Below are positions 3,369-53,035 of a stretch of DNA of 64,000 bases, piece after piece. Source of the DNA: Botrimarina mediterranea (GTDB lineage Bacteria > Planctomycetota > Planctomycetia > Pirellulales > Lacipirellulaceae); the NCBI RefSeq assembly GCF_007753265.1, contig NZ_CP036349.1, positions 1,893,363 to 1,957,362 of the forward strand. Direction: 5' to 3'. The position numbers were made by a program, and so were the translations under genes. Position 1 is the stretch's first letter. The number at the start of each line of letters is the position of its first letter. The notes under the pieces are model-generated. The model did not search any database and was not told the origin of the DNA. It saw only the letters and a program-made list of their open reading frames with translations.

Positions 3369-3744
3369 GTGGGTAGCGTTAGTAGCTATCGCGATCTCGT
3401 TGTCTGGCAGCGGGGCGTTGAGCTTTGTCTGGACGTCTACCGACTCACGGCTCGGTTTCCAAAGGAAGAACGGTACGGGCTCGCTGCGCAAATGCGGCGT
3501 TGCGTCGTATCGATCCCATCCAATATCGCTGAAGCCCAACGCCCGCGACTCCACCAAAGACTACTTACGCTTCATCGCGATCGCCCGTGGCTCGCTTGCC
3601 GAGCTGGAAACACAAACGACGATCGCGAAACATTTGACCTACTTCGACGCTGAGTCCAGTAACCAACTGCTAGCGAGATGTGAGGAAGAGAGCCGCATGC
3701 TGACAGCCCTGCGAGCATCACTAGCCCGCCGGCTGCAAAGCTGA
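3369..3744 (+). pseudogene. Four-helix-bundle protein (23S rRNA intervening-sequence / S23 family), frameshifted
   Basis: A GTG at 3369 opens a frame reading SYRDLVVWQRGVELCLDVYR, then LTARFPKEERYGLAAQMRRC and VVSIPSNIAEAQ, the hallmark N-terminal half of the S23/IVP family. The second half is in another frame: ARDSTKDYLRFIAIARGSLA, then ELETQTTIAKHLTYFD, ending at 3744. Joining the halves needs removal of one C near 3540, where the family expects IAEGQARDSTKDYL. So this is a single +1 frameshift in an otherwise full-length gene (about 118-124 residues). It is either a recent pseudogene or a sequencing error. Free-standing members have no firmly known function. G-rich and C-rich runs flank the gene. 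Confidence 0.85.
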
Positions 3745-26030: not shown

Positions 26031-26039
26031 AGTCGATTA

Positions 26040-26229
26040 ACCACAGAGGCACGGAGAGCACAGAGGAAAGCACAGAGAGAAGTAAATGTAGGAGGGGTCT
26101 CCAGACCCCGATTACGGCGTCTTGGCCGAATACGGCATGGTGCGCGTAATCGGCGTCAGGAGACGCCTCCCACAAACAAATCAAATCCTTATCTCAGTGC
26201 GTCCTCCGTGCTCTCCGTGTCTCCGTGGT
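26040..26229. repeat. Nested palindromes: ACCACAGAGGCACGG outer, TGTAGGAGGGGTCTCC inner
   Basis: Outer arms 26040-26074 and 26198-26229 (ACCACAGAGGCACGGAGAGC against its complement CTCTCCGTGTCTCCGTGGT) enclose a complete second palindrome. The inner arms are 26087-26115 and 26142-26174, of the GTAGGAGGCGTCTCC family also found at 36506, 46592 and 59631. The inner element thus sits inside the loop of the outer one. Confidence 0.88.
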
Positions 26230-26251
26230 AAACTTCCTTCGCTGAACTCCA

Positions 26252-31860: not shown

Positions 31861-31895
31861 CTTGCCGCTGTCTTTAGGGGGATGGTTTTACGAAG

Positions 31896-32193
31896 AAGGA
31901 GATATGGGGATGGTCTATCGGTGCAGTGGGGGCGTGGGCGATGCGGGCCGGCGATTGGTGGTGAGCGACTACTGAGGAGATATTGGGGATGGAGCCTTTG
32001 CGGGGCAACGCGGGATGACCAAGTAGAGTGAACTAAGAATTAGTTATTCAATTCAGAACAACCCACTGATCGATGTCATTGCGCCTTGCCATTCGACCAT
32101 CTCCATTATCTCCTCAGAAGCCAGACTGCCAGCAACCGGCGGCTCGAAGTAACTCCGCGGCGTCCTTACCAAGTTGCCATCCCCACATCTCCT
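31896..32193. repeat. Nested palindromes, GGAGATATGGGGATGG type
   Basis: Outer arms 31897-31913 and 32177-32193 (AGGAGATATGGGGATGG, one mismatch) enclose inner arms 31972-31992 and 32096-32117 (CTGAGGAGATATTGGGGATGG, two mismatches). Inner and outer arms share the GGAGATAT(T)GGGGATGG phrase, so they may be related copies. The outer right arm reaches into the stop codon of pyrD. No gene was seen in this 330-base interval. Confidence 0.75.
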
Positions 32194-33169
32194 AAATCTT
32201 AAGACATAAAGTTCCAACGACTTCGCTAACGCTCGTCGCGCCTAACTCTCCTAGCGCCGCCGGTAGCGCCTCTAGCACTTCTATCGACGCTTGAGGCCGG
32301 TAGAAGTTCACGGTGCCGAGCTGCACGGCCGACGCGCCGGTGACGAGGAACTCCATCACGTCGTTGATGTTCGCGATGCCGCCGACGCCGATGATCGGGG
32401 TTTTGACCGCTTGGCTGGCTTGCCAGACGCAGCGGAGGGCGATCGGCTTGATCGCCGGGCCGCTGAGGCCGCCGACCGTGTTGGCGAGCAGCGGCTTGCG
32501 TTTGCGCCAATCGACCGCCATGCCGAGCACTGTGTTGATCAGGCTCAGGGCGTCGGCGCCGCCCGCCTCGGCGGCGCGGGCCATCGTGGCGATGCTCGTC
32601 ACGTTGGGCGTCAGCTTCGCGATGATCGGCAGGTCGGTCGCGGCGACGCACTCGCGCACCACGGCCTCGCAGAGGGCCGGGTCGCTGCCGAAGTCGACGC
32701 CCCCCGACACGTTCGGGCACGAGACGTTCAGCTCGATCGCCGCCGGTCGGAGCGAGCTATCAACGACATCGAACTTACGGACCAACTCGACGAACTCGTC
32801 GCGCGCCTTGCCGGCCACGCTGACGATGATCGGCGCGCCAACCGACGCCAGATAGGGCAGGTGGCACTCGATGAACGCGTCAACGCCGTCGTTATCGAGG
32901 CCGATGGCGTTGAGCATCCCGCCGGTCGTCTCGACGGTGCGCCACGGGGCGTTCCCTTGCCGCGGCGTGGCGGTGACGGTCTTCGGCAGGATGCCGCCGA
33001 GCCGTGAGACGTCCACGAGCGACGCCAGTTCGCGGGCGTAGCCGAACGTCCCCGAGGCGACCAGCACGGGGTTCGGCAGCCGCAGGCGACCGAGCGTGAC
33101 GGACAAGTCCACCGACGCCGGAGCGACGGGGTCCGAAGCAGGCGGAGCGGACGGGGCTTCGGGCGACAT
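32192..33169 (-). CDS. pyrD: Dihydroorotate dehydrogenase, class 1B-like
   Basis: 325 residues from ATG 33169, with a Pro/Ser/Ala-rich leader of about 20 residues. Oxidises dihydroorotate to orotate in pyrimidine synthesis, using FMN. Signature segments are [34 protein letters not shown] (the Cys-containing active-site loop of class 1 enzymes), [43 protein letters not shown] and [20 protein letters not shown]. Class 1B enzymes pair with PyrK for NAD+ reduction, but no pyrK is in this window. The stop codon lies in a palindromic repeat arm. Confidence 0.93.
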
Positions 33170-42641: not shown

Positions 42642-44042
42642 ATGGCGCCCGGCAACGATGCCAAACTGACGCGGCTGCGCGACCTGTTGCCGGGGGCGAT
42701 CTACCTCCCGGCCGACAGCGACCCCGCGCTGACCACGGTCCGGACGGACGCCGCGGCGGTCCAGCCCGGCGACCTCTATGTCCACCTCGACCCGTTCGAC
42801 TCGACCGACGCCGAGATCGCCGTCATCCGCGGCGCCGCGGCGGTCATCACCGAACGGTTGCTGCCCGACGTGCCCGTCCCGTTGGTGCTGGTCGACGACG
42901 GCTTCGCCGCGTGCGCCGAGCTAACGGCGGCGATGGCGCCGATTCGCTCGACACTTCCCACGATTGTCAGCGTCGGCGGCGTGACGGGCGCCTGCCGAGT
43001 CGCGACGATCGTCGCCGCGATCCATGCGCATGCGGGCGAACGCGTCGGCCTGCTGACCGAATCCTGTGACGACGATGGCGAGCATTGCTTGCCTCGTGAC
43101 CAACGATCCAAAGACGCCGCGAGCCGTTGGCTCCGCCGCTGCGAACTCGGCGACGTGACGACGGCGATTGCCCAGACCGTTGCGGGCGAGCAAGCCGGGG
43201 CGACGCCGCTCGTGGCGTGCCTCGTGTCGCTGCGCTGCGACGGACTCGACAACTTGGGCCGGCCGTGTTGGGAATCGAACGCGGCGCATCGCCGTGCGGT
43301 TGTCGATTCGCTCGGCGAACTCGACGCCGGCGTGACGCTCGTCGTCAACGCCGACGACTCTGAATGTATCCGCGTCGCTTCGACTCACACGGGCCGCGTG
43401 CTGACGTTTGGCGAGTCGGGGACCGCCGACATCCGCGTCGTCCCGGTCGAGTCCCACGCCGCGGGGCAGACGCTCATTGTTGCGGTTGGTAGTGACTCGG
43501 CCTGCGTGGCGATCGGGTCGCCCGGTCGCGCCGCTCGGCGTGATGCGGCGGCGGCGATTGCGGCCGCCCTTGCCGTTGGCTTCGACTTACAGACCGCGGT
43601 GCGAGGCGTCGACCTGTCGCCGTGCGTGCCGGGCGCGCTGAGCCCCGTGCCGTGCGGGCAGGCGTTCTCGGTTTACATCGACAATGCGGTGCGGCCGACG
43701 GACCTCGCCGACGCCTTCGACGGCGCGCGGGGCAAAGGCCGCTTACTCGCAGTCGTGAAGCTGGCCGACTCGGCGATCGTCGCGCTGCGACAGTTGTCGG
43801 CGGCGTCGCAACTTGCCGACCGGGTGTTCGCTCACGGCCGCGTCGAGCTCGAGGACGACACGCCTGCTGGCGTCACGGTCGTTGAAGACCGCTTGTCGGC
43901 GATCGCCGTCGCGATTGGCCTAGCGGACGAAGGCGATTCGGTCCTCGTGGCCGGCAGTCACGACGAGAAGAGCGACCGCCAATTGATCACCAAGCTGCTG
44001 CGTCGTCGCCTGGAGTGCGAAGACCGCCGCGCGGCGGCTTGA
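42642..44042 (+). CDS. MurE-like Mur ligase homologue with degenerate P-loop
   Basis: 466 residues from ATG 42642 with a strong AAGGAGG seven bases upstream. The N-terminal part resembles MurE/MurF domain 1: VRTDAAAVQPGDLYVHLDPF, DAEIAVIRGAAAVITERLL. The C-terminal domain has the MurE-type GALSPVPCGQAFSVYIDNAV and a short KGRLLAVV segment, then DEGDSVLVAGSHDEKSDRQL. The central ATP loop, normally GTNGKT[TS], reads VGGVTGACRVAT (111-122): the catalytic Lys is absent. It is therefore probably not an active amino-acid ligase but a paralogue with a structural or regulatory role. The next coding gene is a MurG-like protein, also catalytically altered. Confidence 0.7.
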   Translation: MAPGNDAKLTRLRDLLPGAIYLPADSDPALTTVRTDAAAVQPGDLYVHLDPFDSTDAEIAVIRGAAAVITERLLPDVPVPLVLVDDGFAACAELTAAMAPIRSTLPTIVSVGGVTGACRVATIVAAIHAHAGERVGLLTESCDDDGEHCLPRDQRSKDAASRWLRRCELGDVTTAIAQTVAGEQAGATPLVACLVSLRCDGLDNLGRPCWESNAAHRRAVVDSLGELDAGVTLVVNADDSECIRVASTHTGRVLTFGESGTADIRVVPVESHAAGQTLIVAVGSDSACVAIGSPGRAARRDAAAAIAAALAVGFDLQTAVRGVDLSPCVPGALSPVPCGQAFSVYIDNAVRPTDLADAFDGARGKGRLLAVVKLADSAIVALRQLSAASQLADRVFAHGRVELEDDTPAGVTVVEDRLSAIAVAIGLADEGDSVLVAGSHDEKSDRQLITKLLRRRLECEDRRAAA

Positions 44043-44207
44043 ATTTAATTAACCAACACAACGGAGACACCCAAGTTTCATCGTCGGCCGCCGAAGATTG
44101 CGGGGTCCTAGGCGGCTACCCCCCCCGGGGTGAAACAAACAGTTCGCGGCGCCGGTGGATTCTGGGTCATCCGCCTGTCGCGGGCGTTTCACGGTGAAGC
44201 TTACGTC

Positions 44208-44246
44208 TGAACGTCGGGGCCGACGAAACCGTCGCCCCGGCGTTCA
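44208..44246. terminator. GC-rich hairpin downstream of the MurE-like gene
   Basis: TGAACGTCGGGGCCGACG (44208-44225) pairs with CGTCGCCCCGGCGTTCA (44230-44246) with one bulge and a 4-base loop. There is no T-run, so a terminator role is tentative; it may be another repeat relic. Confidence 0.5.
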
Positions 44247-44309
44247 GCGGATACAGCAGCTGGCAGCGTGCAGGCTGGGACGCTGACCGAGTTGGAAGTG
44301 TTGAGTGAC

Positions 44310-44585
44310 GGCGAGCCGGGAGCGTTAGCGACCTGAGTTGAAGTGGGCGCCCGGGTTCTGGAAGAGTGGAACCACGGATGACACGGATGAACACGGATTT
44401 GTTGTTTAGTTGAGCGAGCGAAGCGAGGCGTTGTTCCACTCCCACTTGTGGGGAGGGAGGGTGACATACGGCTCGCTTCGGTCACGACCAACAAACCATC
44501 CGTGTCTATCTGTGTCATCCGTGGTTCCATTTATTAGAACCCACGTCTCCGTTTCATCTCGGGGCGTTGACGCTTCCGGCTCCCC
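44310..44585. repeat. Triple-nested palindrome between MurE-like and MurG-like genes
   Basis: Outer, degraded arms: 44310-44333 (GGCGAGCCGGGAGCGTTAGC) and 44561-44585 (GACGCTTCCGGCTCCCC), of the GGCGAGCC family. Inside lie arms of the ACCACGGATGACACGG family, 44368-44404 and 44489-44528. Inside that is a third inverted pair, CGAAGCGAG (about 44420-44428) with CTCGCTTCG (about 44471-44479), around CTCCCAC/GTGGGGAG. With flanking sequence this fills most of the 570-base gap; no gene was seen in it. Confidence 0.78.
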
Positions 44586-44612
44586 TTTGTTGATATCGCT
44601 GGGGTATATTCG

Positions 44613-45767
44613 ATGGCTCGTGCTCCTCACATCCTGATTGCTGGCGGTGGGTCGCTGGGGAGTATTTACCCGGGGCTATCGATCGCTCGGCAGTTCCAGG
44701 AGCGGATGCCCGGGGCGCGGGTGACAATCGCGGGCGATGGCCGTGCGATTGAACGGCACACCGTGCGTGGGGCGGGGCTTCGATACTCGACGGTTCCTTC
44801 GAGCCGCTTTCCAACGTGCATGCTCGAGGCGCCGCGGTACGTGCTGCGCAATGCGGCGGGTTGGTGCGTCGCCCATTGGCTGTTGCGGGAGCAGGAGATC
44901 GATCTGGTGATCTCGCTCGGCGGGCATGCGGCGGGACCGATGGTTCGCGCGGCACGGGCGAGCGGCGTCCCCTACGCGATCGTTGAGCAAGACTGCCTCC
45001 CGTACCCGGCGACGCGCGACGCGACTCGCGACGCCAGCGTGGTGTGTCTTGCCCAAGACGAGACCGCCGCGCGGCTGCCGATGGGCGCGCCGGTGCGTTG
45101 GACCGGGCCGGTGGGTCGGCCTGGCTTTGAGGATGACTTCGGACATTGCCCTGGCGGACGCCTGCCGATGGCCGGCGACGACGGGCGGCCGCGGCTCGTG
45201 GTGCTCGGCGGTGTGGCGGGCGCGACGTCGCTCAATGAGTCGATGCCCGAAGCGATCAAGCGTCTCGGCGCCGCGGCCGCCGATTGGCAAGTCGTTCATC
45301 AGACCGGCGACGGCTGGCTCACCGCGACCGAGTCCCGCTACGCGGCCGTCGGCGTCAACGCGCTCGTGGTGACCTACATCGACGAGCTTGCCCATCTCGC
45401 TCGGTCGTCGGACCTGATCGTCTGCCGCCCGAGCGGCTCGACGCTCGCCGAGGTGTCGCTCGCCGGATTGCCGGCGGTGTTCGTGCCCGACTCACGGCGT
45501 CGCGACGGGCTGCACGAGGCCAACGCCCAGTTTGCGGCGCTCCGCACGGGCTGCCCGACCGTTAACGAGAACGACGGCGACCTCGCCGCGTCACTCGCCG
45601 GCTGCTTGCGGCCGTTGCTCGAGGACGAGGCTCGTCGCGACACGATCGCCGAGCGGCTGCGAAAAATGGCCCGCCCCGAAGCGTCGGCCCTGGTCGCGGA
45701 CGCCGTTTGCGAAGCCCTGGGCGTGCTGGCAGTCGCCGAGCCGCCGCGCCTACGCTTGGCGGCATAG
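44613..45767 (+). CDS. MurG-like glycosyltransferase homologue lacking the catalytic His
   Basis: 384 residues from ATG 44613. The GT-B, GT28-type fold is clear: ILIAGGGSLGSIYPGLSIA (G-loop 1), DLVISLGGHAAGPMVRAARA, PYAIVEQDCLPYPATR, RLVVLGGVAGATSLNESMPE and DLIVCRPSGSTLAEVSLAGL, then PAVFVPDSRR. MurG transfers GlcNAc to lipid I. Real MurG has GGTGGHxxP at loop 1, with the His implicated in catalysis; here it is GGSLGSIYP (Ser17). The donor-site RxGxxTxxE becomes RPSGSTLAE, mostly kept. Activity on lipid I is doubtful; a modified glycosyltransferase is possible. Downstream of the MurE-like gene on the same strand. Confidence 0.75.
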   Translation: MARAPHILIAGGGSLGSIYPGLSIARQFQERMPGARVTIAGDGRAIERHTVRGAGLRYSTVPSSRFPTCMLEAPRYVLRNAAGWCVAHWLLREQEIDLVISLGGHAAGPMVRAARASGVPYAIVEQDCLPYPATRDATRDASVVCLAQDETAARLPMGAPVRWTGPVGRPGFEDDFGHCPGGRLPMAGDDGRPRLVVLGGVAGATSLNESMPEAIKRLGAAAADWQVVHQTGDGWLTATESRYAAVGVNALVVTYIDELAHLARSSDLIVCRPSGSTLAEVSLAGLPAVFVPDSRRRDGLHEANAQFAALRTGCPTVNENDGDLAASLAGCLRPLLEDEARRDTIAERLRKMARPEASALVADAVCEALGVLAVAEPPRLRLAA

Positions 45768-52867: not shown

Positions 52868-53035
52868 GGAACCACAGATGGACACGGATGCACACAGATA
52901 AGAGCCCGCGAATGACGCGAATAATCGCGAATGAAATGAACTTTGATCGGATTGCCTGCAACATGATTCGCGCCTATTCGCGTTATTCGTGGGCTTAATC
53001 TTTATCCGTGTTTATCTGTGTCCATCCGTGGTTCC
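52868..53035. repeat. Nested palindromes: ACCACGGATGG outer, GCCCGCGAATGACGCG inner
   Basis: Outer arms 52868-52902 (GGAACCACAGATGGACACGG) and 53000-53035 (CTGTGTCCATCCGTGGTTCC). Inside its loop are inner arms 52904-52933 and 52965-52994 (GCCCGCGAATGACGCGAATA), the same family as 59548-59622. The outer right arm carries the GTG start of pgsA. Confidence 0.9.

Follow-up and report, generated by a model that had tools for sequence, protein, structure and literature searches.

Nested palindromes upstream of a murG-like gene in Botrimarina mediterranea and the placement of palindromic elements in hairpin loops

In a 64,000-nt stretch of the Botrimarina mediterranea genome, hereafter the window, three palindromes lie one inside another between a Mur-ligase-like and a murG-like gene. 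The question raised by this locus is how such an arrangement came about and whether the loops of hairpins are places in which palindromic elements preferentially settle. Such a hairpin-tip insertion rule, if true, would be measurable in any genome. Palindromes of the CACGGAT, CACAGAG and CACGAAG types are abundant in this genome, and in several phyla they occur next to GxxExxY genes; no named owner is given for them in the literature searched.

The nest and its setting upstream of murG

The nest at 44310-44585 is real (Table 1). When 44367-44530 is excised in silico, the outer arms close into a hairpin with 50-nt arms and a 12-nt loop, and the middle element thus occupies the outer tip loop. 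The score of this outer hairpin, 18.5, compares with a mean of 7.6 and a maximum of 12.25 among 300 dinucleotide shuffles, and with values of at most 13.0 across 150 Markov sequences. The middle element measures 163 nt and is crossed only by an antisense ORF of 109 aa. The innermost 83 nt likewise form a hairpin (score 14.25 against a shuffle mean of 6.05, equalled by 0 of 300 shuffles), for which no further genome copy was found at E<=0.01 among the 40 of 145 candidates scored; it is therefore a hairpin, but is not established as an inserted repeat. The first-pass annotation had described three palindromes enclosed in one another, a geometry that is borne out; successive insertion has support at just two of the levels, no other copy of the third having been found. 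It had also placed the greatest decay in the outer arms, and arm identity indeed rises inward, from 72% in the outer palindrome to 85% in the middle one and 14 of 16 positions in the innermost, whose arms are merely 16 nt long.

Table 1. Coordinates of the nest, of its neighbouring genes and of other concentric palindromes, as positions of the window
Feature	Position	Strand	Remark
Mur-ligase-like gene, upstream of the nest	42642..44042	+	sub-threshold Pfam match
Outer palindrome, left arm (GGCGAGCCGGGAGCG family, REPIN-like)	44310..44359	+	gapped hairpin once the middle element is excised
Outer tip loop, left remainder	44360..44366		7 nt
Middle palindrome, left arm	44367..44406	+	three CACGGAT units
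Innermost hairpin, left arm	44416..44431	+	no other copy among the candidates scored
Innermost hairpin, right arm	44468..44483	-	14/16 matching
Middle palindrome, right arm	44490..44529	-	34/40 matching
Outer tip loop, right remainder	44530..44535		5-6 nt, depending on cut placement
Outer palindrome, right arm	44536..44585	-	36/50 positions matching
murG-like gene, downstream of the nest	44613..45767	+	
CACAGAG-type host palindrome	26037..26232		loop holds a GTAG-type REPIN (26087-26174)
Concentric arms of one motif (GGAGATATnGGGGATGG)	31885..32205		read as a single element with doubled arms
CACGGAT-type host palindrome	52868..53035		loop holds a GCGAAT palindrome (52903-52995)

The nearest named relative of the MurG encoded in the window is that of Botrimarina colliarenosi (76%), and that of B. 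hoheduenensis matches at 45%. At the orthologous murG site, the nest is absent from all three congeneric genomes compared, in which a conserved upstream stretch runs nearly straight into murG; the spacing from this stretch to murG is 47 nt in genome G001 as against 369 nt in the window. Of these four genomes, that of the window alone carries the nest.

The DNA upstream of murG shows a feature of its own. Positions 44067-44253 form a structured stretch that is conserved in six of the six Pirellulales loci aligned and consists of a closing helix (AAGTTTCATCGT/ACGGTGAAGCTT) followed by a terminator-like hairpin, with both sides changed in at least one sequence for 14 of the 58 predicted pairs. 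This stretch is possibly an undescribed RNA; a search of 43900-44800 against Rfam returned three matches, each far under the gathering score.

Loops, arms and flanks of host hairpins

The placement of palindromes relative to one another was counted over 2.864 Mb (49%) of the 5.87-Mb single-contig genome, the window included. This sequence contains 877 inverted repeats, whereas third-order Markov sequence of 1.2 Mb contains 8, which rules out a chance origin; the repeats fall into 35 families of at least three members. Each of 563 compact elements was excised, its flanks were joined and a gapped host hairpin was sought at the junction, a design by which insertions into arms are detectable as well as those into loops. 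An ungapped version of the arm test (54 in loops and 4 rescued in arms, of 563) missed the host of the nest itself and was replaced by the gapped one. A naive nesting count, with 65 pairs in loops and 16 outside in 2.06 Mb, was discarded since composites and same-family arrays inflate it. The final count uses a score of at least 15 and drops same-family pairs, 20 composite rows (families 9/8), six CAGGATTATGCA MITE rows, three ACCGCCAAG/ACAGGAT rows and five rows with a residual loop above 120 nt; flank pairs visible from both sides were merged, which leaves 11.

Relative to a hairpin of another family, 35 elements lie in the loop, three in an arm and 11 in the flank, i.e., within 15 nt outside. 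Uniform insertion simulated with the same pipeline (1361 insertions) yielded 450 loop, 284 arm and 489 flank placements, and the corresponding expectation is 18.0, 11.4 and 19.6 (chi-square p 2.4e-6). Nesting thus exceeds what density predicts, which was the check that the first-pass annotation had called for. The expectation was drawn from simulation instead of raw lengths since arm insertions are frequently misread, 181 of 651 simulated ones as loop and 149 of 651 as flank; the simulated hosts were isolated elements with loops of at most 60 nt, and the ratio leaves out 95 missed hosts, three missed guests and 40 far-flank calls. The 35 nests span 25 host x guest family pairs from several classes, and the ratio of loop to arm to flank is 25:3:8 when each pair is counted once (p 2.4e-4).

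With the guest removed, many host loops fall within the range of their family, e.g., 9-64 for ACCACAAAGG against quartiles of 16/20/38, and some are longer than usual, such as those of GTAGGGTCCGC (44-146 against 42/51/54), the comparison set in each case retaining occupied copies. The proposal that hairpin tips are preferred targets is supported by the excess of loops; against it, insertions are not significantly centred within loops (n=25, KS p 0.085), and complete GxxExxY elements lie inside host hairpins in none of 11 cases (13 tried, two of them lacking ungapped arms). A strict hairpin-tip insertion rule is not proven.

Similar two-level nesting had been reported at three further places in the window, of which 26040 and 52868 stand (Table 1). 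At 31896, the outer and inner arms share the GGAGATATnGGGGATGG motif, and the structure is therefore better read as a single element with doubled arms. Within the genome, two nested blocks do behave as fixed units, and both are excluded from the count: CGCGCAGAGACG enclosing ACTCACGCAAAG is copied as one unit, about 290 nt long and made of two concentric palindromes (20 rows in 2.864 Mb), and an ACAGGAT palindrome within ACCGCCAAG arms is found in three counted rows, with more copies observed. Such recurrence, seen within one genome, partly bears out the second objection that the first-pass annotation had raised against its own reading, namely nested blocks kept as single units across species. 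Since part of the nests are copied as entire units, there is no single clean insertion rule. Examples of the CGCGCAGAGACG/ACTCACGCAAAG-type unit are located at positions 684966 and 565007 of the genome. In two other genera (loci L179 and L189), apparent three-level nests were seen by eye, in which CACGGAT arms are outermost and enclose a CACAAAA/CACGAAA-type palindrome around a CGCAAAG type, or a GGAGGCGTCTCC-type REPIN.

We consider it probable, with some reserve, that a REPIN-like outer element came first and that an unrelated miniature then entered its tip loop, as one case of a genome-wide loop pattern. The outer element would belong to those palindromes whose proposed movers are Y1 (RAYT) transposases, and the second, unrelated palindrome would have entered its 12-nt tip loop later. 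In its complete form, this second element would consist of an arm, a gene for a GxxExxY PD-(D/E)XK nuclease and the inverted arm, with about three 9-10-nt units in each arm. Palindromes of several families would settle in this manner in the loops of other families and seldom in their arms. Whether a hairpin forms on single-stranded DNA or as part of a cruciform, its arms would be double-stranded and its tip alone single-stranded, and single-strand enzymes, such as HUH/Y1 proteins and possibly a RecB/Cas4-like nuclease, may insert at the tip; loops would then be favoured because only the tip offers a single strand. The three insertions into arms and the 11 elements in flanks count against this reading.

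Insertion might instead be uniform, with arm insertions lost or decayed because they break a palindrome that is needed for termination or mobility, an explanation that we regard as unlikely. It would agree with the presence of just three arm cases, and two composites have spread as units, which implies that a guest in the loop leaves its host copyable. Insertions into the flank spare the host too, yet loops outnumber flanks (35 vs 11, p 9e-5; 25 vs 8 family pairs, p 1e-3), and the nests are mostly single-copy combinations. Survivorship may thus account for the scarcity of arm insertions, but not for the excess of loops over immediate flanks.

Capture, in which unit-repeat arms are added around an existing hairpin or mobilise the DNA that they enclose, would make the outer element potentially the younger one. 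Unit-repeat arms do surround varied cargo, including GxxExxY genes, REPINs and other palindromes. However, the outer arms of the nest at 44310-44585 are more decayed than the middle ones (72% vs 85%), the outer element is REPIN-like and lies outside the unit-repeat class, and residual loops are frequently ordinary in length, all of which makes capture quite improbable. That every nest is one conserved multi-palindrome unit is scarcely credible, since this holds for CGCGCAGAGACG/ACTCACGCAAAG (20 rows) and several ACCGCCAAG/ACAGGAT copies, but 44290-44610 has only partial matches elsewhere in the genome and no second full 276-nt nest among the 40 of 145 candidates scored, its site is empty in three congeners and 25 family pairs are represented among the 35 nests.

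Nesting of this kind has a direct precedent in REP dimers within palindromes (PMC3733652): many GTAG-15 dimers lie inside long palindromes in A. variabilis, and cases are also described in T. roseum and H. neapolitanus. Those cases involve one REP family and one target type per species, whereas 25 host x guest pairs are seen here and, unlike in that work, the rates for arm, loop and flank are compared. The REP-targeting insertion sequences IS1397, ISKpn1, IS621 and ISPpu9 likewise move into palindromic units as their chosen targets; as far as the available part of PMC1525189 describes them, each encodes a transposase of its own and none is a palindromic miniature, and the 163-nt middle element contains no transposase gene.

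Families of the outer and middle elements

The outer element consists of two short inverted repeats that form a hairpin, as is typical of a REPIN, and its family is multi-copy, with at least 54 matches listed in its own genome (40 of 132 candidates scored). Among the matches listed for other genomes, 18 are in G001, three in G003 and none in G002. The inverted pair of short repeats and the high copy number resemble the REPIN/RAYT system, for which the part of PMC3116915 consulted proposes one small gene family as the mover. Five Y1 transposase matches are present in the genome, none of which is flanked by the family of the outer element; one (L002) lies between GTAG-type REPINs and two (L003 and L004) between other repeats, and around the remaining two (L001 and L005) there are no repeats within 300 nt. 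The GTAG end tag, which defines GTAG REPs only, is absent from the outer family, which starts GGCGAGCC, and is present in the TGTAGGAGGCGTCTCC family.

The arms of the middle element have 12 exact pattern matches in their own genome, and the broader CACGGAT-type family comprises 55 inverted repeats in 2.864 Mb, i.e., dispersed copies that carry no gene. Of 43 genomes from the bacterial family, 9 contain the exact arm pattern, and the linkers between its units vary freely. In genome G039, perfect 38-nt CACGGAT arms surround a GxxExxY ORF (TIGR04256 4.6e-35; PF13366 1.7e-32). The loci at which CACGGAT arms flank a GxxExxY gene are L182 (score 39), L167 (21) and a contig of a viral collection, L211 (17). 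Exact CACGGAT arms surround none of the six GxxExxY genes of the own genome, among which the nearest is L204, with CGCAGAT/CGCGGAT units.

Inverted arms of short units nevertheless surround all six PF13366 genes of this genome and span at least five unit families (ACCACAAAGG, GCGAAT/CACGAAT, CGCCAAG, CGCAGAT/CGCGGAT and GGGATGTTGG). At the same score of at least 16, such arms occur around 9 of 1499 like-sized ORFs and 2 of 1500 random segments. GxxExxY loci collected elsewhere by protein search carry inverted unit-repeat arms in 6 of 10 cases, namely in Sphingomonas, Gemmatirosa (one of two copies), Bernardetia, Bacteroides finegoldii and two viral-collection contigs; at the armed Gemmatirosa copy, whole palindromes flank both sides. 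Arms are lacking at the other four, from Fusobacteria, Treponema (score 11.5), Persicobacter and the second Gemmatirosa copy. Arms scoring at least 16 are found at 15 of all 21 GxxExxY loci, or at 12 of 16 without L182, L167, L174, L178 and L181, which are a biased sample as they were found by arm search; the set of 21 does not include a Prevotella plasmid record and one further place in Gemmatirosa. When left flanks are paired with the right flanks of other loci across all 21, 7 of 420 combinations reach this score. At L178 and L181 (genome G010), an entire CACGGAT palindrome stands on just one side of the GxxExxY gene.

Six aligned GxxExxY proteins share G27, E30, Y33, D70, K82, Q94 and Y98, which we take to be PD-(D/E)XK motifs of the RecB/Cas4-like type. 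With the GxxExxY alignment as query, a sequence search of the PDB gave nothing at E<=1, and two GxxExxY genes were recovered from viral contigs; a single-protein query recovered none from the latter. Among phages, the matches were two records of a single halovirus. The middle palindrome appears to be a gene-less miniature of GxxExxY elements, and we infer from the sequences that the GxxExxY protein may mobilise the arms. Unlike in the REPIN/RAYT system, as set out in the part of PMC3116915 consulted, the middle arms are made of three 9-10-nt units and the gene encodes a PD-(D/E)XK nuclease instead of a Y1/HUH transposase. The link between gene and arms is provisionally new: no report of it was found in the open-licence PMC literature, where GxxExxY occurs in two papers, in one of them as a passing mention, and six exact arm strings do not occur in the open-licence PMC papers searched.

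A parallel class around four-helix-bundle genes

The genome contains seven PF05635 matches at six places, four of which fall within the 2.864 Mb analysed. Arms of seven-base-like units (AATGACG, AATGACC, GGCGCTAGTT and others) surround three of these four; the fourth, at 3390-3705 of the window, is a broken, frameshifted four-helix-bundle gene with only degenerate G-rich seven-base arms (score 11.25). To these four were added 11 plasmid loci, ten of them from cyanobacteria and the eleventh from Gemmatirosa, in records picked for organism spread among 34 with four-helix matches. Inverted arms are present at 12 of the 15 loci at a score of at least 14 and at 11 of 15 at a score of at least 16, as against 12 of 210 and 11 of 210 mismatched flank pairs, respectively. 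The plasmid locus L224 is counted as a miss: seven-base arrays stand to either side of the gene, but their orientation is direct instead of inverted.

We infer that the arms of four-helix loci may be tied to the cyanobacterial heptamer repeats (STRR). More broadly, and tentatively, the CACGGAT, CACAGAG and CACGAAG palindromes could be gene-less miniatures of an undescribed class of mobile element that is moved by the RecB/Cas4-like GxxExxY nuclease and not by a transposase; the parallel class of four-helix genes with seven-base arms would then explain the old cyanobacterial heptamers, and both classes may spread partly via single-stranded hairpin tips, which would produce nests of the matryoshka kind. 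If the gene link is true, the palindromes would find their owner among two small families, the GxxExxY nuclease and the four-helix bundle, and two families that have no assigned role would become candidate mobility genes.

REP dimers in palindromes, REP-targeting insertion sequences and S23p ORFs between inverted repeats are already in print. In the available part of PMC4990558, the 23S rRNA intervening sequence with its S23p ORF is likewise a small four-helix-bundle gene between terminal inverted repeats, with a 28-bp stem in Coxiella, and an origin by transposition has been proposed for it. Unlike this intervening sequence, the ten annotated plasmid four-helix loci lie among protein genes and not in 23S rRNA, and their arms are seven-base arrays. 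Arrays of seven-base units similar to the four-helix arms are described as heptameric repeats, GGGAATC in Xanthomonas and Nostoc (PMC4692102) and TAACTGA in Beggiatoaceae (PMC4679880), which are not tied to a four-helix gene in the portions of text examined. The portion of PMC4692102 examined reports about 70 pairs of GGGAATC in inverted orientation in Xanthomonas and generally no association of the Xanthomonas and Nostoc heptamers with mobile elements.

Some of the four-helix genes on cyanobacterial plasmids are located inside CRISPR operons, between cas6 and cas4 at L219 and L224 and between cas10 and a Cmr3 gene at L223.
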